Assembly: GCA_947449695.1 (NCBI GenBank)
Contig: CANFST010000011.1
Location: forward strand, 1 to 64,000
Direction: 5' to 3'
Source: Chitinophagales bacterium
GTDB lineage: Bacteria > Bacteroidota > Bacteroidia > Chitinophagales > CAIODY01
Length of the DNA stretch: 64,000 nt
Every line of letters begins with the position of its first letter. Within the stretch, counting starts at the first letter, position 1. Under the pieces are notes generated by a model, which was not told the DNA's origin, did no database searches, and was given only the letters and a program-made list of their open reading frames with translations. Made by a program: the position numbers and the translations under genes. Of this stretch, positions 272 to 45,120 are shown piece by piece.

Positions 272-1222
272 ATGAATCAACAATATTCAATATTATCAAT
301 AATAACTTTTAAAGAACGTGCTATTACTCCAGAGATATTAATGGTTGCTAGCTTTATTTTCTTTATAGTTATGTTTATATTGAAAAGAAAGAGGTTATTA
401 TATTTTAAAGAAAATGGTTTTTTCTTTACATCCAAAAGGTACATTTCAACAATTGTTTGTCTTTTTGTAGCTGTACCTGTTACAAATAATTTTCTACTAA
501 TTGGATTATTTCATTTATATCTTAAAGGAGGGTACGATTTCAAGTATTTTCTATTCTTTATAATAACACTTGTTTATGATTTCTACTTAATTGGAATTAC
601 CCTTAATGATAAGGATGTCGCTTATGTTAACTTTCTTTTTTTTAAAATTAAATTCAGTATTATTAAAAGCATCTACTATTACTCACGAATAATCTACTAT
701 TCTTTTTGCATATTTTCAACTTTAATAACATTACCCTTTAATGGTTTATATGCTTATGCTTACATATCGTCTAGTTCATTTTTTGGGGGGGGGGTGATGA
801 ATAATAATCCTTGGGAAATTTCTGAACCAAAACAAACTATTAGAGAGCTAAAAATTTATTCTGTAAATGAACGAGAATTAATCAACAACCATGATGTAAA
901 AACTGTAATTACAAAAGATAGGTTTTGCATTTTACAAAAAGTTTGTTATGTGGACTTTTCAAAAGCACTAGATAATATTGATTTGTCTAAACCAAACTAT
1001 TTATCCAATAATGATACTGTGGCACTTGATGGCAGAATTGAGGCACAATACCAGACTCCTCCCAATAATCTTTATTTGATTTTTAATAAAACAAAAAATG
1101 AGTTTTGGATCGTTCAAAATGACTATAAAAAAATACTTAAAGCAGGCTATGCTTACGCCGCAAATAATTGTTTCGAATATCAATTAAATAGTACTAAAAT
1201 TATAACAAAATTTAAAGATTAA
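272..1222 (+). CDS. Hypothetical multi-pass membrane protein with a G10 tract
   Basis: A 316-residue protein I do not recognise. The N-terminal half has about four or five hydrophobic segments (roughly residues 20-38, 54-75, 86-108, 118-140, 140-165). The second half (from about residue 180) is soluble and polar. Between them, bases 785-794 are ten consecutive G residues encoding Gly-Gly-Gly; in the present length the frame stays open, but gain or loss of one G would cut the protein near residue 175. It sits directly downstream of the IS21 end and is isolated from the gldC group by a palindrome-rich gap. Base use is as AT-rich as its neighbours. Confidence 0.6.
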   Translation: MNQQYSILSIITFKERAITPEILMVASFIFFIVMFILKRKRLLYFKENGFFFTSKRYISTIVCLFVAVPVTNNFLLIGLFHLYLKGGYDFKYFLFFIITLVYDFYLIGITLNDKDVAYVNFLFFKIKFSIIKSIYYYSRIIYYSFCIFSTLITLPFNGLYAYAYISSSSFFGGGVMNNNPWEISEPKQTIRELKIYSVNERELINNHDVKTVITKDRFCILQKVCYVDFSKALDNIDLSKPNYLSNNDTVALDGRIEAQYQTPPNNLYLIFNKTKNEFWIVQNDYKKILKAGYAYAANNCFEYQLNSTKIITKFKD

Positions 1223-38948: not shown

Positions 38949-39022
38949 CTTTAATCGGGTGGGATTTGCAAATTAATTTAAAAGGCTTGGCAATAAGGCA
39001 TAAAACACCTGGTTTTTCGCAA

Positions 39023-39655
39023 TCACACAGCCACTATATGCATGGCATCACTAAAATCATCTTGCACATTATTTACCACTTTGGCATATCTGAAATAGTA
39101 AGTAGTGCCAGGTGTTAAACCACTCACTATAACACTAGCTTTGCTGCCAATGGAAATAATTTTCCAAACCAATTCATTCACCGAACCAACATTGCCCGAA
39201 CTCATTTCAAAAATATACACCGCTCTTTTAGTGGCTCTTACTTTTAACATCACTGTGCCACTTAATGTGCCATGTTTTACTGAAAAATCTGGAATGGTAG
39301 CTTTGGTGAAATGTTTCGCCTGCATACCCGAAGCAACAATGATAGTCTCGGCTTGCAAAGGATTAGCATTGGCTACATCAGCTACATAATGTGATAATTC
39401 AGTGATAGCATATACATATGCTTTCACTCTTTTCTTTAAAAGTTCGGTGGCTGATTTGCCGCCATCTTTAGTGAGCAAGAATGCCGATTCCATATCATCT
39501 ATCACGGTCTCAACACTGGCTAAAGAAGGGTGGGGTAAAGGATTAGGTGCTGCAAAGAAACTGCTGCTGCTCATTCTTTTGATGATACTTCTGCCAGTTT
39601 CTATTTTAACAGGAACACTTTGCTGGCGCAAACCCAAGTTGATTTGATAACGCAT
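39023..39655 (-). CDS. Hypothetical protein with C-terminal fibronectin type III-like domain
   Basis: A 210-residue protein without signal peptide. The C-terminal 90 residues carry a fibronectin III-like ending, VIVSGLTPGTTYYFRYAKVVNNVQDDFSDAM, of which GLTPGTTYYFR is the diagnostic part. The N-terminal half is helical (ATELLKKRVKAYVYAITELS). The same architecture occurs in small Bacteroidota proteins found near mobile or repeat-rich regions. It starts the accessory stretch that runs to 45 kb. Function unknown. Confidence 0.65.
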   Translation of the reverse strand: MRYQINLGLRQQSVPVKIETGRSIIKRMSSSSFFAAPNPLPHPSLASVETVIDDMESAFLLTKDGGKSATELLKKRVKAYVYAITELSHYVADVANANPLQAETIIVASGMQAKHFTKATIPDFSVKHGTLSGTVMLKVRATKRAVYIFEMSSGNVGSVNELVWKIISIGSKASVIVSGLTPGTTYYFRYAKVVNNVQDDFSDAMHIVAV

Positions 39656-39818
39656 AACGAGAAGTTTTAAAATTTAAAAACTAAATCATGCTTCGCTGTT
39701 GTTCTTGCTTTTAATAACGGCAAAGCCTTGCTATTATTGTATTCATTATATTATTTGACTGTATTTTTTCTCGAAAGGTTGCATGGAAAGTGTGAATTTT
39801 TACCATACCAAAACAGAT

Positions 39819-40112
39819 AGCGGCAATACGACATTGAACAGCGGCAATTCAACATCGTATAGCGGCAATTCGTTCTTATATTGCGGTTATTCATCATTGT
39901 ATAGCGGCTATGCGATATAGTATTTAGGCAATTCAATATGGTTTAGCGGCTAAATGATATAGTATTGCGGTAATGCACAAACGAATAGCCGCTATACGAC
40001 ATAGTATTGCAGCAATTCATTTACGGATAGCGTCTGTTCGATATAGTATTGCGGTAATTCATTTACGAACAGCGGCTATGCGATGTTGTATTGCCGAAAA
40101 ACACAAATGAAT
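39819..40112. repeat. Degenerate minisatellite, 14 x 21 bp
   Basis: Fourteen contiguous units of exactly 21 bp. From unit 4 on, two unit types alternate: AGCGGCTATGCGATATAGTAT-like and TGCGGTAATTCATTTACGAA(T)-like, giving a 42-bp higher-order period. All frames contain stops except short stretches (45 codons on the plus strand from ATG 39783). The flanks 39656-39818 and 40113-40216 show no gene. There are no spacers, so it is not a CRISPR array. It is close to the RAYT transposase gene. Confidence 0.9.
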
Positions 40113-40216
40113 AGACGAAATTTGTTTGGGGATGGCTAGAAAGGATAGAGAAATGGGGAAAAAATCCTTTAACCTTGAAAATAATTGGGTGGTTGTTATA
40201 TGGCTTTGTTGTTGAA

Positions 40217-40262
40217 TTAGGCAGAACCAAAGCCGCTTTACGCAGCTTCGATTCAACAAATA
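40217..40262 (-). repeat. Inverted copy of the dispersed hairpin repeat
   Basis: Read on the minus strand this stretch gives TTGTTGAATCGAAGCTGCG TAAAGC, followed by GGCTTTGGTTC. It matches the core of the two repeats at 43917-44027 and 44185-44297, with the arms GAATCGAAGC and GCTTTGGTTC still able to pair (two G-U pairs). The interior is shorter than in those copies. Confidence 0.75.
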
Positions 40263-40314
40263 AATTTAGCGATTATTGAAAAAACCATCTGCACTGATGT
40301 CTTCATCTATTGCC

Positions 40315-40338
40315 GAGGTTCGTGTCCCCACGAACCTC
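40315..40338 (-). repeat. REP-like hairpin at the 3' side of the RAYT gene
   Basis: GAGGTTCGTG, loop TCCC, CACGAACCTC: a perfect 10-bp stem 16 nt beyond the transposase stop codon. It is the reverse complement of the second hairpin of the element at 40949-41014, so the gene is enclosed by inverted copies. Confidence 0.88.
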
Positions 40339-40354
40339 AATTAGTTAAATAAAT

Positions 40355-40909
40355 TTAAAACACATCCATCAAGTTTTTTAAAAAGCCAAAATCATTTTTT
40401 CCATTTTCATAAAACTGTGCTGATGAGTAAGGATATTCAAGCGGCTCATCAACCAATCGCCAATGTTTTGCCAATGGATTTTGGTGCATGTAGTTTAACT
40501 TTTGCAATGCAGTAGTGCGATTGTTTAATTCAAATGCCAATGAATCGCGTTGCCAAAATTCATAGTTTTTATTTTCTGCTTCTACTTCATAAAGTTTTAA
40601 TTCATGCGGCTTTGCAGCTTTAATATACTTCTTAAACGCATGTGCCGTGTGTTTCATAAACGAACCTTGTGCAGTTTCTTTTCCGTTCAACTCCAATGTT
40701 TGCCAAATCAAATGAATGTGATTGGGCATAATAACCAAACCATACACGTTGATTTTTTCAAGGTCGGATAAATATTTCAAAGAGTTGATAATGATTTGTT
40801 TCGGTTCATCATCGGCTAACAACTTCATCCAATTATTGATGGTAGCGGTGTAAAAATAAATTTTACCAATTTCAATAAACGATTGCCGCTGTTGTTTGAA
40901 ATAATTCAT
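40355..40909 (-). CDS. REP-associated tyrosine transposase (Y1/IS200-like, RAYT)
   Basis: A 184-residue HUH single-strand transposase of the Y1_Tnp type. The metal-binding His-x-His is in VIMPNHIHLIW (about residues 58-68). The C-terminal part contains YEFWQRDSLAFELNN and LNYMHQNPLAKHWRLVDEPLEYPYSSAQFY, typical of REP-associated transposases. The nucleophilic tyrosine is probably one of those in the middle helix region, which I could not assign with certainty. The gene is flanked by inverted hairpins (40315-40338 and 40949-41014), as expected for a RAYT and its REP elements. A -7 box lies 4 nt before ATG 40909. Confidence 0.88.
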   Translation of the reverse strand: MNYFKQQRQSFIEIGKIYFYTATINNWMKLLADDEPKQIIINSLKYLSDLEKINVYGLVIMPNHIHLIWQTLELNGKETAQGSFMKHTAHAFKKYIKAAKPHELKLYEVEAENKNYEFWQRDSLAFELNNRTTALQKLNYMHQNPLAKHWRLVDEPLEYPYSSAQFYENGKNDFGFLKNLMDVF

Positions 40910-40913
40910 TAAG

Positions 40914-40921
40914 CAAAGTTA
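40914..40921 (-). promoter_or_regulatory. Promoter -7 box of the RAYT gene
   Basis: TAACTTTG on the minus strand is a perfect match only 4 nt before the ATG at 40909, so the message would be leaderless. Confidence 0.55.
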
Positions 40922-40948
40922 ATTGCTTTCTTGTTTTGAAGTATTGAT

Positions 40949-41014
40949 GCCTCGGTTAGTGCCCTCACTAACCGAAATAAATGATTGATGTTCGTGGGGA
41001 CACGAACCTCGGCG
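40949..41014 (+). repeat. Two-hairpin REP-like element at the 5' side of the RAYT gene
   Basis: Hairpin 1 has arms TCGGTTAGTG/CACTAACCGA (40952-40975) with loop CCCT. Hairpin 2 has arms GTTCGTG/CACGAAC (40990-41007) with loop GGGA. It is nearly identical to the element at 13877-13940, about 27 kb away. Its second hairpin is inverted relative to the one at 40315-40338. Confidence 0.9.
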
Positions 41015-41120
41015 GAGAGGATAAATTGGTTAAAGTAAATTGATTGGAAATAAATGTTTGTGCTTTAACCGCAAGTGAAATACATACGATTAGTACAATA
41101 GAGAAGAATAACTTTTTCAT
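40968..41120 (-). pseudogene. Secreted-protein gene stub cut off at the REP element
   Basis: A 50-codon frame starts at ATG 41120 with a textbook signal peptide (MKKLFFSIVLIVCISLAVKA, then QTF). After about 35 residues it runs into the REP-like element, reads through hairpin 2 and stops inside hairpin 1 (TAG 40970-40968). The sequence after TNLSSPP comes from the repeat, so the original gene body appears to have been lost or displaced. It is probably the 5' end of a former exported protein. Confidence 0.6.
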
Positions 41121-41176
41121 TTAGGTTTGTTTAATTGTTTAGTGTTTGTGATTAATTTTATTACCGTTAAAATCTT

Positions 41177-42205
41177 CTAATTGTAACGCAGATTGTATTC
41201 ATTTTGAAAAATCAATTCCATTGCTGTATGCCAATCTTCTTCAGTAAAATCAGCATACACTTGTTGCCACATTTTTTCTAAATAAGGCAATTGCTCATAA
41301 TCCCAAAGTCCCTCCAATTGATAAAGCAAGTCAATATTGAAATCTAATTTTCCAGCCCAAGCATAAAATCCGATTGGATAAAGTTGAAACCAATATTTCA
41401 GCACCATGTCATTTGTCCATTTTATACCTTCATTATCTGCTAAACCCATCTCAACAATTCTGATTGGTATTTCATCTATAGCAATAAAGGGATTGAATTC
41501 GCCTTTGGTTGCATATTCATATTTTACACCACCCCAATACCATTTATCAATAAATCTATCAATCAATTCTTCACTCCAAGGCAAATATATTTCGGTGCTC
41601 AATTTTTCAAAATCTAAGGTATCAGCTTGAGCAATTATTTCTTCCAACGTGTATTTATTAGGTTTGTAAGCCACCTTCAATTTTTCTTCTTTTGGTTTTT
41701 CAAAAGGCTCTACAAGTTTTATATCACCATAAGTCATTCCCTGGTTTCCTAATTTGGCTTTACCCATTTCATAAACCTTGGTTGTAGCTTCATCTATCAC
41801 TGTTATAATGCAATTATGTCTTTGTTCTTTTAATTGGTGTAAATACTTTTCAAAAAATGCTGGCGTACATTTATTAACGCACTGAAAAAAAGTTTCTTTA
41901 TTTATTCTGTGTTCAAAATATTCAAACATTTCTACCGACCAAATGATGCTGCTATTTTCTTCAATGCCAAAATCGAGATTAGAATCTTCATCGCTGAATT
42001 TAATTTCTTTCTCAAATTCTTTCATTAATTCAAAATCCCAAGGGATATGCTCATTTATTGATAAATCGTGCCAGCTTATAAATTCACTCCATTGGCGAAT
42101 GGCAGATAGGCTTAGCTGATGATAACGGCAATAATGTTTTATAGCCATTCGAGTATGGCGATACAAAAAATCTTTGGGCGATATTGTTTTAATTTGGTGC
42201 AGCAT
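41177..42205 (-). CDS. Hypothetical protein with Trp-rich repeats
   Basis: A 342-residue protein I do not recognise. It has no signal peptide or TM helix. A motif with Trp followed by an acidic-hydrophobic helix recurs: HIPWDFELMKEFEKEI, IIWSVEMFEYFEHRI, YLPWSEELIDRFIDKWYW and IKWTNDMVLKYWFQL. Several copies are preceded by LSxN/LADN-type segments. This suggests a helical repeat protein. It is monocistronic, with a -7 box 13 nt upstream, inside the accessory stretch between the RAYT and the split nuclease-like gene. Confidence 0.65.
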   Translation of the reverse strand: MLHQIKTISPKDFLYRHTRMAIKHYCRYHQLSLSAIRQWSEFISWHDLSINEHIPWDFELMKEFEKEIKFSDEDSNLDFGIEENSSIIWSVEMFEYFEHRINKETFFQCVNKCTPAFFEKYLHQLKEQRHNCIITVIDEATTKVYEMGKAKLGNQGMTYGDIKLVEPFEKPKEEKLKVAYKPNKYTLEEIIAQADTLDFEKLSTEIYLPWSEELIDRFIDKWYWGGVKYEYATKGEFNPFIAIDEIPIRIVEMGLADNEGIKWTNDMVLKYWFQLYPIGFYAWAGKLDFNIDLLYQLEGLWDYEQLPYLEKMWQQVYADFTEEDWHTAMELIFQNEYNLRYN

Positions 42206-42218
42206 GAAATTGATTTTG

Positions 42219-42226
42219 CAAAGCTA
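42219..42226 (-). promoter_or_regulatory. Promoter -7 box of the 41177-42205 gene
   Basis: TAGCTTTG on the minus strand, a perfect match, is 13 nt before the ATG at 42205. Confidence 0.55.
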
Positions 42227-42302
42227 AACCAACTTTTAAGAAGCTTTGAAAATAACTTGTGCCAACTTTAATTAATTCAATTCTTCGCTGAACATTATTA
42301 AA

Positions 42303-43466
42303 CTAATGTTTTTTATTTGATTTTAATGTTATTATAGTCATTACAAGCAATATAATACCCAATGCAATTGCAGGGTATAATTGAGCAAAATATTTTATTG
42401 CTTGAAAGATAAAAAACAATATAATCCAAATAACAACCCCAATAATAAATGCATTTGGCTTTTCTTTTTGAGGTTGGTTATTTACGATGTTTTGCGATTT
42501 AGATTTTTCAGTTGGAAGGTCTTTGATTGTTGAGTTAATATCACTTGGACTTAGTTTATAAGATGGCTTGAGTGTTATATTATCTTTTTGTGAGGTTGTT
42601 ATGGATGAAGGTATTTTAGGTAATTGCCCCTGTGTAATTTTAGGAAAATCAACATTGCTGTGAACTGTTTTTCCTAGTTCATGTGGTGTTTTTTCGAATA
42701 TTATTTTAGTAGGGTTGAAAACTTTTTTTGAGCCATTTTTATCTTCAAAAGATATTCCTAAATAGCTTTCTCGGAAATAATTATCTGATAACTCCTTTGA
42801 CTTAACTTTAGTCCAAAATGATTGTTTATCTAAATGTTTGCTCGATAAGTTTGGAGGTACAACAAATGCTTTGTTTATTTTTTTTAGTGTGTTTGCTATT
42901 ACAGCACAGCATCCCAAAATGTTTTGATGCACTTGAAATTCCGAAAATCTAATAACTATCCACCCATTTTCATTAAAAAAAATATTCCTATTGGCATCAC
43001 TTTCTAATGTATGAGTAGGCACTCGAGTCAATAAATCGTATGGCTCGTCAATTTCAATATCAATATAGATGTTTTGTTTTTCGTCGATTAAAGCTAAATC
43101 AGGAAAAAAAGTTTTTCTTTCCTTGATAGAATTTAGTGCTAAATTATTGTACACCTTAAACGAAGAAAATACGCAAATTAATTTTTGTATTTGGTCTTCC
43201 AATTTGGCTTCTAAAAAACCCTTCTTAACAACCGAGGCATCATTTAAAATATGTGGAATCAAAATTTGTGTGCCTTTTAATGGTACAGAGATAAACGGGT
43301 AATAGTTTTTATCATCATCAAAAAGTTGAATTAGATAATCAACAACTTTAATTTCCGCTGATTGAGTTAAAAGTGTACCCTTAACTTCTTTGGCATCATT
43401 ATCATTGCTTCTACTTATAATTTCTTGTTTAGCCGAATTGTTGATTAATCTTTGAGATAACTGGAA
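42303..43466 (-). pseudogene. Nuclease-like/TM part of a gene split at an A10 tract (3' part)
   Basis: The frame ending at 42303 is open without an ATG back to the A10 tract at 43476-43467, well beyond the TTG at 43262. The upstream part (FQLSQRLINNSAKQEI ... VVDYLIQLF ... YYPFISVPLKGTQILIP, shown in part) looks like real protein. The middle has a PD-(D/E)xK/DUF559-like core: FFPDLALIDEKQNIYIDIEID and later NENGWIVIRFSE. The C-terminus has two TM helices (about the last 50 residues). One extra A would join it to the coiled-coil frame 43445-43885, giving one protein of about 527 residues. Confidence 0.65.
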
Positions 43467-43885
43467 TTTTTTTTTTCAAGAAAATCAATTTCTTGTTTGA
43501 GAGTTTCAGTCTTAGTTTCTAGCAAAGAAAAATAATTTTTCTTATCATTTATTTCAGTACTTATCTCTGATTCTTTGTTTTTTAGTAAATTAAATTTTTG
43601 ATTCGTTTCATTTAAATTAGCTATTAAAACAGAAAGGTTATTTTCTTTGTTTTTATACTGTTGTTCAATTGAATCAAGTTCAATTCTTCTCTTTTTTAAT
43701 TTATCATTCAATGCCTCAAAATGCTCTTCTTCTTTTTTCTTAGAAATTGCCATTGATTCAATCTCTTTCTCCAGTTTCTTTCTTTCCTGTTTTATGCTTT
43801 CAATTAAGTCTAGCAAATTAGTATATTCATCTTTTATTCTTTCTCTTGTTTTTTTTGAGAAAATTATTTTCAAATAATCTATCAT
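43445..43885 (-). CDS. Coiled-coil part of the split gene (5' part)
   Basis: A 146-residue protein that is almost wholly a coiled coil (Lys/Glu/Asn-rich heptads from about residue 10 to 140), starting at ATG 43885 with a short hydrophobic patch (DYLKIIFS). It stops at TAA 43447-43445, ten residues after the A10 tract. The sequence after the tract (NSSYLKD) looks like an out-of-frame tail. The next frame continues into the nuclease-like/TM domain, so this is probably the N-terminal half of a larger protein. The short form may also be made if the tract length varies. Confidence 0.65.
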   Translation of the reverse strand: MIDYLKIIFSKKTRERIKDEYTNLLDLIESIKQERKKLEKEIESMAISKKKEEEHFEALNDKLKKRRIELDSIEQQYKNKENNLSVLIANLNETNQKFNLLKNKESEISTEINDKKNYFSLLETKTETLKQEIDFLEKKNSSYLKD

Positions 43886-43916
43886 GTTGTTTTTTTATGC
43901 CTTTAGAAATTATACA

Positions 43917-44027
43917 CCGTAGAAGTTAAGTTGTTGTTTGTTGAATCGAAGCTGCGTAAAGCCTTTGCGTTGTTGGCTTCGGTTCTTCTTGGTGCAAAAA
44001 TAAAAATAACAGCGAATAAAAAGGGAA
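43917..44027 (+). repeat. Dispersed hairpin repeat, copy R1
   Basis: The first 72 bp (43917-43988) are identical to copy R2 at 44185-44256, and similarity continues for about 40 more bp. It contains an imperfect hairpin with outer arms GAATCGAAGC and GCTTCGGTTC and an inner arm pair CGTAAAG/CTTTGCG plus a TTGTTG bulge. The stretch 43886-44042 has no gene. Confidence 0.88.
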
Positions 44028-44042
44028 ATTATTTTTACTCTT

Positions 44043-44189
44043 TCAACTATTTATTTCAGCATCCACAGCATCAATTAGCAGTTGTAATTTTTTGTCGCTA
44101 ATATTTTCTTGTTCAGATTTATCGTAGATGGAAAGTAAAAAAAGTTGATTGCCTTTTTGGTATAAATAAGTGATGATTCTTGCCCCGTA
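44043..44189 (-). pseudogene. RelE/ParE-like toxin, C-terminal fragment
   Basis: A 48-codon open stretch ending at TGA 44045-44043 reads GARIITYLYQKGNQLFLLSI, then YDKSEQENISDKKLQLLIDA and further to INS. This matches the C-terminal half of RelE/HigB-type toxins (R-x-x-Y, then a strand with hydrophobic L-L-x-x-Y-x-K-x-E). There is no start codon: upstream it runs straight into repeat R2 (44185 onward). The first half, including most of the active site, is missing, and no cognate antitoxin is next to it. Confidence 0.6.
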
Positions 44190-44297
44190 GAAGTTAAGTT
44201 GTTGTTTGTTGAATCGAAGCTGCGTAAAGCCTTTGCGTTGTTGGCTTCGGTTCTTCGTGGTTCAAAACTAAAAATAATAGTGAATAAAAAAGAAAAT
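44185..44297 (+). repeat. Dispersed hairpin repeat, copy R2
   Basis: Identical to R1 over 72 bp and similar to about 44297 (AAAATAATAGTGAATAAAAA versus AAAATAACAGCGAATAAAAA). It replaces the 5' part of the RelE-like toxin fragment and lies directly downstream of the hepT pseudogene. Confidence 0.88.
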
Positions 44298-44315
44298 TGT
44301 TTTGGGGTAAAAAAA

Positions 44316-44645
44316 TTACAGAATTAATTGAACCTGTTTTTTCAAATCGGCTAAATCCATTTCGATAGTTTCCCATACAATAGAAATATTTACATTCCTA
44401 TAATCATGAGCCATTCGGTTTCTCATGCCTTTGATACGATGCCAATTAATTTGTTGGTGTTAGTCTTTAAATGCTTCGGGCAACTTTGTAGCTGCTTCGC
44501 CAATGATTTCAAAATTTCTAACTACAGCATCCACCGTTTTGTTATCGGTTTTAAAACTATCATAGTTCATGCCTTTGGTGTAGTCATCAATTCGTTCAAT
44601 GGCTTCAATAATATCTTGCAATAAAATTGAGGGTTGATTATACAT
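44316..44645 (-). pseudogene. hepT: HepT-like HEPN toxin with in-frame stop codon
   Basis: The frame from ATG 44645 gives a DUF86/HepT N-terminus (LLQDIIEAIERIDDY, FEIIGEAATKLPEAFKD), then TAA at 44462-44460. Reading on in the same frame gives the rest of the family: HQQINWHRIKGMRNRMAHDY, then NVNISIVWETIEMDLADLKK, ending at TAA 44318-44316. The HEPN active-site motif Rx4HxY is intact but lies behind the stop. So one nonsense codon inactivates an otherwise complete RNase toxin. The start overlaps the end of mntA by 8 nt. Confidence 0.78.
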
Positions 44646-44928
44646 ATTGTAAATCAGGCTGAATAGTAGCTAAAAATTGCGGACGTAAATCTTTGTTACA
44701 AACCAAATCAACTTTGGTTTGCAAAATAGTTTCTAAATCGTTTGCTAAATCAATAAACCGAATGCCAATGGGTTCATTAAATTCAACCAACACATCAACA
44801 TCACTATCCATGCGCTGTTCACCACGAGCATAAGACCCAAAAATTGCCATTTTTGTTAACGGATATTTTTGCAAAAGCTGTGCTTTGTGTTGCGCTAATA
44901 ATTGCTGTATAAATGGTGTAGTAAACAT
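44638..44928 (-). CDS. mntA: MntA-type nucleotidyltransferase antitoxin
   Basis: A 96-residue minimal nucleotidyltransferase. The signature is FGSYARGEQRMDSDVDVLVEF (G-S-x(n)-D-x-D at about residues 31-51), with a further VDLVCNKDLRP. MntA proteins neutralise HepT toxins by AMPylating the Tyr of the Rx4HxY motif. The TTG at 44964 overlaps a perfect -7 box (TAATTTTG, 44959-44952), so the start is ATG 44928. It overlaps the hepT pseudogene by 8 nt and seems intact while its toxin is broken. Confidence 0.85.
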   Translation of the reverse strand: MFTTPFIQQLLAQHKAQLLQKYPLTKMAIFGSYARGEQRMDSDVDVLVEFNEPIGIRFIDLANDLETILQTKVDLVCNKDLRPQFLATIQPDLQYV

Positions 44929-44951
44929 ATTTCGTTCAAAATGAACTGCGT

Positions 44952-44959
44952 CAAAATTA
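44952..44959 (-). promoter_or_regulatory. Promoter -7 box of mntA-hepT
   Basis: TAATTTTG on the minus strand, a perfect match, is 23 nt before ATG 44928. Confidence 0.55.
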
Positions 44960-44994
44960 TTCAATAAAACTTAAAATAGGAATATTTTATTTCA

Positions 44995-45036
44995 TCAAAA
45001 ATAAAAACAACAGCGAATAAAAAAGGCATTATTTTT
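44995..45036 (+). repeat. Dispersed hairpin repeat, 3' part only (R3)
   Basis: CAAAAATAAAAACAACAGCG followed by AATAAAAAAGGCATTATTTTTC matches the distal end of R1 (43994-44038) with few changes. The hairpin part is absent. It lies between mntA and the iscS promoter. Confidence 0.65.
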
Positions 45037-45120
45037 CTGGGTGGTTTGAAAAACATGACTCTTGTCATTCTTTTTTACAATTTTTTTACCAAGGCTGAAA
45101 CATTATTCTGTATTACTTGT

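Follow-up and report, generated by a model that had tools for sequence, protein, structure and literature searches.

A DUF559-Like Nuclease Gene Divided at an A10 Tract in a Chitinophagales Bacterium

The Divided Locus and Its Reading Frames

The window analyzed here is a 64,000-nucleotide stretch of contig CANFST010000011.1 from a Chitinophagales bacterium. On its minus strand, two open frames meet at a run of ten A, with the following features:

43445..43885, minus strand: part 1, a coiled-coil ORF of 146 aa with an ATG start and a TAA stop at 43447-43445
43476..43478, minus strand: -1-frame TGA whose final A starts the run; the 5' bound of the frame switch
43467..43476, minus strand: A10 tract (A on the coding strand), the site of the frame switch, containing an in-register A_AAA_AAA heptamer
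42303..43466, minus strand: part 2, in the -1 frame, 387 codons to the stop and no ATG; predicted DUF559-like nuclease and two TM helices
43260..43262, minus strand: TTG at residue 69, the first ATG, GTG, or TTG of part 2, inside the domain and past the near-invariant P62
42747..43379, minus strand: DUF559-like PD-(D/E)xK domain, residues 30-240 of part 2, predicted from alignments, AF2, and Foldseek
42309..42452, minus strand: two predicted C-terminal TM helices, residues 339-363 and 365-386 of part 2, from hydropathy and AF2 (pLDDT ~78-91)

The zero frame passes through the tract as GAA AAA AAA AAT and ends shortly afterwards, while the -1 frame, whose TGA sits at the start of the run, then continues without a stop for 387 codons beyond it, as far as 42303. 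Because of the -1-frame TGA (43478-43476) and the zero-frame stop (43447-43445), the frame switch must lie within 43445-43476, a stretch of 32 nt that includes the A10. The genome has 30 distinct A/T runs of at least 10 in 3.14 Mb, and at that density a stretch of this size would contain an A10 on a given strand with a probability of ~1e-4. An earlier note on this DNA had described a gene divided exactly at a homopolymer, with one ORF at 43885-43445, the A10 at 43476-43467, and a second frame reaching 42303 with no ATG, and all of this agrees with our analysis, the first start-type codon of the second frame being the TTG at 43262. The note placed the zero-frame stop ten residues after the tract, which is correct when counted from the start of the tract but not from its end, where the stop follows after about six codons. 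It also proposed that an 11-A tract would fuse the two parts into about 527 residues; the arithmetic (409 + 11 + 1161 nt) indeed yields 527 codons.

The frame break is directly observed, and we infer its cause and recency. Both frames look truly coding, with confident AF2 folds and, for part 2, protein relatives. Besides the break there is no further stop across 523 codons, an outcome with a neutral probability of 0.39 at 1% divergence and 0.06 at 3%. Alignments show that all family-conserved nuclease residues are present in part 2. Their retention, together with the lack of any other stop in the 523 codons, points to a recent break or to a gene that still functions.

This locus is almost certainly one interrupted gene rather than two, because part 2 has no ATG and a start at TTG 43262 would truncate a conserved, confidently folded nuclease domain. 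In an alignment of 44 sequences the near-invariant P62 precedes the TTG at residue 69, and AF2 predicts strands at part 2 residues 30-32 and 58-60 with block confidence of ~86-92. The predicted helix of part 1 extends to its end and part 2 opens with a predicted helix at residues 2-18; a single long helix plausibly crosses the junction, as suggested by AF2 models made for the two parts separately. Nor are the two parts always separate genes in homologs, the outcome that the earlier note held would count against it: in 69 of 85 relatives from genome and viral contigs, 180 or more codons of the open frame precede the motif, such that the nuclease is continuous with an N-terminal extension, although none carries the same coiled coil. 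Certain relatives on cyanobacterial plasmids are short independent proteins of ~190 aa, as would be expected if the locus comprised two overlapping genes and the second were translated from a start of its own. However, given the truncation that the first available start would cause, the exact coincidence of the overlap with the A10, and the in-frame extension in most Bacteroidota relatives, we regard two genes as scarcely credible.

A Coiled Coil, a Predicted Nuclease Domain, and a TM Pair

Part 1 is almost pure coiled coil, with a hydrophobic period of 3.5 residues, and is predicted by AF2, with no alignment used, to form a single helix over residues 11-145 (mean pLDDT 93.8). Its matches to Pfam models (Mod_r, tropomyosin, and others) and to PADLOC models (JetC and LmuB) were rejected as coiled-coil noise.

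Based on its motifs and predicted fold, part 2 is assigned to the DUF559-like nucleases of the PD-(D/E)xK superfamily. Because the fold E-values are weak, this assignment rests on motif, Pfam match, and fold together. The conserved positions are E86, P122-D123, E138-I-D140-E141-P142-Y143, H152, D157, and R160 in the first half of the set and W169, R173-F174, Q178, W218, and R232 in the second; among them, E86, D123, E138, and D140 provide the acidic pattern which, with the core fold, marks membership of the superfamily. The window protein matches Pfam DUF559 (PF04480) with 18.8 bits (E = 0.0015), just under the curated gathering score of 20.6 bits, and the same model is matched weakly by 16 of 21 aligned members (best 3.2e-05). 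AF2 models the nuclease domain with block means mostly of 86-98 and a core pLDDT mostly >90. The best meaningful Foldseek match to this model is PDB 3hrl, a putative endonuclease (prob 0.93, TM (target) 0.75); further PDB matches are to RecU, Hjc, Bax1, and McrC, all members of the PD-(D/E)xK superfamily, with Foldseek E-values >0.1. After the domain, residues 258-334 form a low-confidence linker leading to the TM helices, which AF2 predicts as helices at 339-363 and 365-386. The PD-(D/E)xK/DUF559-like core and the two C-terminal TM helices proposed in the earlier note are thus both upheld.

The likeness to DUF559 and to MTES_1575 (PF18741) consists of a core with E, PD, ExD, H, DxxR, and GWxVxRF elements, the weak Pfam match, and the fold match to 3hrl. 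The window protein scores below the Pfam cut-off, however, and its subfamily is distinguished by an EIDEPY motif and an N-terminal YPxxxxP region. The protein also differs from both DUF559 and MTES_1575 in its coiled coil and C-terminal TM pair.

The Accessory Insert between rpoD and iscS

The nuclease gene lies in an insert with the following features:

38951..45040: 6.09-kb accessory insert between rpoD and iscS, which are adjacent in the same-genus genome G002
40355-40909: RAYT-like Y1 transposase ORF (weak PF01797), between 36-nt inverted palindromes at 40312-40347 and 40978-41013
41177..42205, minus strand: downstream ORF of 342 aa, on the same strand as the nuclease gene and 97 bp away
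44316-44669 and 44638-44964: MNT-type minimal nucleotidyltransferase (intact, PF01909) and HepT-like partner

The 342-aa ORF has no match in Pfam or PADLOC, nor in five genomes of the family, and neither the nuclease gene nor this downstream neighbor was found in other genomes of the family. A second same-genus genome, G001, has different genes upstream of iscS; a deletion in G002 could also account for the difference at this site. The HepT-like partner, named from its RNRMAH motif and not by a model, is interrupted by an in-frame stop at 44460-44462. Two 119-nt repeats (43917-44035 and 44185-44303) are 93% identical, and beside or between them lies a toxin-like C-terminal remnant, named by eye. 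The insert is a small, partly decayed accessory island. Partial copies of the 119-nt repeat also occur at 40228-40263 and 44996-45035 and on contigs C16, C36, C57, and C87, and a tandem array at 39790-40134 has a 21-nt register and eight overlapping 114-nt members.

Homopolymer Tracts across the Genome

A survey of A/T tracts by pattern search and fetched stretches identified 30 distinct runs of at least 10, about half of them inside ORFs, so that they are not concentrated in genes. About seven to ten of the ORFs that contain such a run read straight through it, and two are split. The second split gene (L072, C75:2880-2889) begins with a signal-peptide ORF of 113 aa and has its remaining 171 codons in the next frame; both splits are a -1 step. 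In the window, A/T runs of lengths 8, 9, and 10 number 31, 4, and 1, a drop that agrees with reported selection against runs of nine (PMC1088944). The A10 resembles a mutable liability more than it does a switch that is being maintained.

Poly-G/C runs are distributed differently. Although the genome is roughly one-third GC, it contains eight internal poly-G/C runs of 9-11, and all eight are in ORFs: window 785-794 (ORF 272-1222), C16:58502-58512, C17:9875-9883, C40:16610-16620, C61:3032-3040, C79:8116-8124, C81:7059-7067, and C86:1942-1952. These ORFs mostly encode secreted proteins, many with signal peptides and T9SS-type ends, and the C16 run is out of frame. They look like phase-variable surface genes, and the contingency tracts of this organism, if any, are likely poly-G. 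Poly-G is also found at two contig ends (C25:1-23 and C27:3-15), where it is probably a two-color sequencing artifact.

These distributions bear on the suggestion, made in the earlier note, that the nuclease gene is phase-variable, with the A10 changing length between generations to turn the nuclease on or off and the present copy being off. Phase-variable restriction systems are known in general, this genome seems to use poly-G contingency tracts, and the gene has both a long homopolymer and an intact downstream frame. However, contingency tracts are expected to be of a type concentrated in ORFs, whereas the A runs of at least 10 are mostly in frame where they fall in ORFs, and only about half lie there, compared with eight of eight for poly-G. 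The sharp drop of A/T runs at nine and above in the window also argues against it, and a tract at the same site is known from no relative. We therefore consider phase variation quite unlikely.

A selected slippage site presents a different possibility. If RNA polymerase slipped on the A10, or the ribosome on A_AAA_AAA, at a set ratio, the gene would yield both a coiled-coil protein and the full nuclease. The tract contains a slippery site suited to -1 frameshifting or slippage (GA A_AAA_AAA AT, in register), and both products look foldable in the models. However, no stimulatory RNA structure was found after the tract (RNA fold z = +0.94), the insert is absent from close relatives, and the site is not common to the relatives, which mostly have continuous ORFs. 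The slippage expression raised in the earlier note accordingly appears very improbable in this programmed form.

A Probable Recent, Possibly Leaky Slip

The earlier note named a recent frameshift or a sequencing error as alternatives. Of these we favor the former: the locus is probably a single accessory gene with a product of ~527 aa, whose frame was recently lost by a one-base slip at the A10 and whose expression may be leaky. The main rival, which we judge unlikely but less so than any other alternative, is that the gene is intact and the length of the A10 is a sequencing or assembly error. Singleton frameshifts validated by homologs are expected to be mostly sequencing errors (PMC3711429). 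The genome is a fragmented 99-contig draft, the two A10 splits err in the same direction, and part 2 is free of decay beyond the switch, each of which would suit an error. However, most other genes of the same assembly that bear an A10 or A11 are in frame, and a neighbor in the insert, the HepT-like gene, carries a lesion that is not in a homopolymer. The poly-G at the C25 and C27 contig ends, moreover, looks like two-color Illumina chemistry, and we take it as a sign of such data; two-color Illumina reads have few indel errors and rarely miscount an A10.

A recent slip in a decaying island is further supported by the absence of the insert from G002, the in-frame stop of the HepT-like gene, and the toxin-like remnant. 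According to this explanation, an ordinary one-base replication slip in the A10 would have cost the gene its frame, and the present genotype would chiefly yield the coiled-coil stub of 146 aa. RNA polymerase is prone to slip on A runs of at least nine, such that, by analogy with other bacteria, part of the transcripts could be in frame and give some full-length protein. Such a protein would oligomerize via its coiled coil and be held at the inner membrane by the C-terminal hairpin, its nuclease facing the cytoplasm, where it would cut DNA, most plausibly invading DNA to judge from the gene neighborhoods of its relatives. On this view the break at the A10 is no built-in switch; it would have disabled the gene, with some leakage, within an accessory island that is itself decaying. 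The intact coiled coil-nuclease-2TM form is one that we infer, and a leak by transcriptional slippage is plausible by analogy.

Slippage on long A runs occurs in bacteria (PMC1088944), and in a laboratory test frameshift bypass increased with run length (PMC3812077). Frameshifted endosymbiont genes can be rescued by transcriptional slippage at such runs, and earlier studies cited in PMC3017870 put full-length transcripts at ~30%. In transcriptome-wide data from E. coli and Buchnera, by contrast, no transcription error was seen to restore a frame (PMC5574713). The closest parallels are the poly-A frameshifts, or "pseudo pseudogenes," of Blochmannia and Buchnera, which transcriptional slippage possibly rescues and in which the frame is likewise lost at a long A run in an otherwise intact gene (PMC3017870, PMC1088944). 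Those are conserved between species or, for some genes, shown in RNA, whereas the present case is a single accessory gene seen in genomic DNA.

Relatives of the Nuclease and a Possible Role in Defense

A direct scan of genome contigs and viral contigs with the window protein returned no match, and phage records likewise contained none; a profile of relatives was needed. With it, relatives were found encoded at 444 places on genome contigs, and the best 80 of these 444 are nearly all from Bacteroidota, with a few from cyanobacteria. Relatives also occur on eight viral contigs (by profile) and on cyanobacterial plasmids. The DUF559-like domain of the window gene is ~26-36% identical to those of its Bacteroidota relatives. 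The earlier note had suggested looking for an intact full-length homolog, but among ~1,200 genomes searched with the protein no other case of the coiled coil-nuclease-C-terminal 2TM layout was found. A match in same-genus G001 (L003) was rejected as a homolog and looks like a low-complexity or TM match.

Most relatives are instead putative dual nucleases, in which a TM segment, the same DUF559-like domain, and a PDDEXK_1-like domain follow one another. A TM segment precedes the domain in 47 of 85 relatives and follows it in none, the reverse of the window protein. At least 300 residues lie beyond the motif in 72 of the 85, and the DWKR-type motif of a second nuclease is present in 57. Individual relatives contain PDDEXK_1 (L074), WYL-like ends (L097, L129), or an HU-type N-terminus (L110). 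At fourteen loci (L077, L079, L083, L116, L117, L120, L125, L128, L132, L136, L142, L145, L148, and L152), a gene of ~606-634 codons begins no more than ~25 bases after the nuclease gene, and where scanned this 606-634-aa product is an SF1 helicase. The nuclease and SF1 helicase pair is possibly a two-gene defense operon in Bacteroidota. The window gene, unlike these dual nucleases, has neither the second nuclease nor an SF1 helicase gene.

SF1 helicases (AAA_11/AAA_12) make up 10 of the 47 neighbors scanned, a raw count with no control gene set. Other neighbors of the relatives include GmrSD, AIPR, DRT reverse transcriptases, type I specificity subunits, and PD-T4-2, and one relative weakly matches the PADLOC model PDC-S34 (0.0015). 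A defense role drawn from these gene neighborhoods is a lead for the family. The earlier note had called the window protein possibly defensive; the position of relatives near known defense genes makes this plausible as family context, while the window protein itself has no match in PADLOC or NCBIfam. As a long shot, the EIDEPY subfamily, with its N-terminal TM segment, RecB-type second nuclease, and SF1 helicase partner, might be an undescribed Bacteroidota defense family, of which the window member would be a reduced coiled-coil version, anchored by its tail and kept at a low dose through slippage at the A10.

The homopolymer lesion itself is a textbook case; what merits further attention is the nuclease family. 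The main yield of this analysis is a little-described family of membrane-linked dual nucleases, often encoded beside an SF1 helicase and defense genes and without a PADLOC model. If this is a defense family, it is a testable one, and the window gene would be a reduced variant of it.
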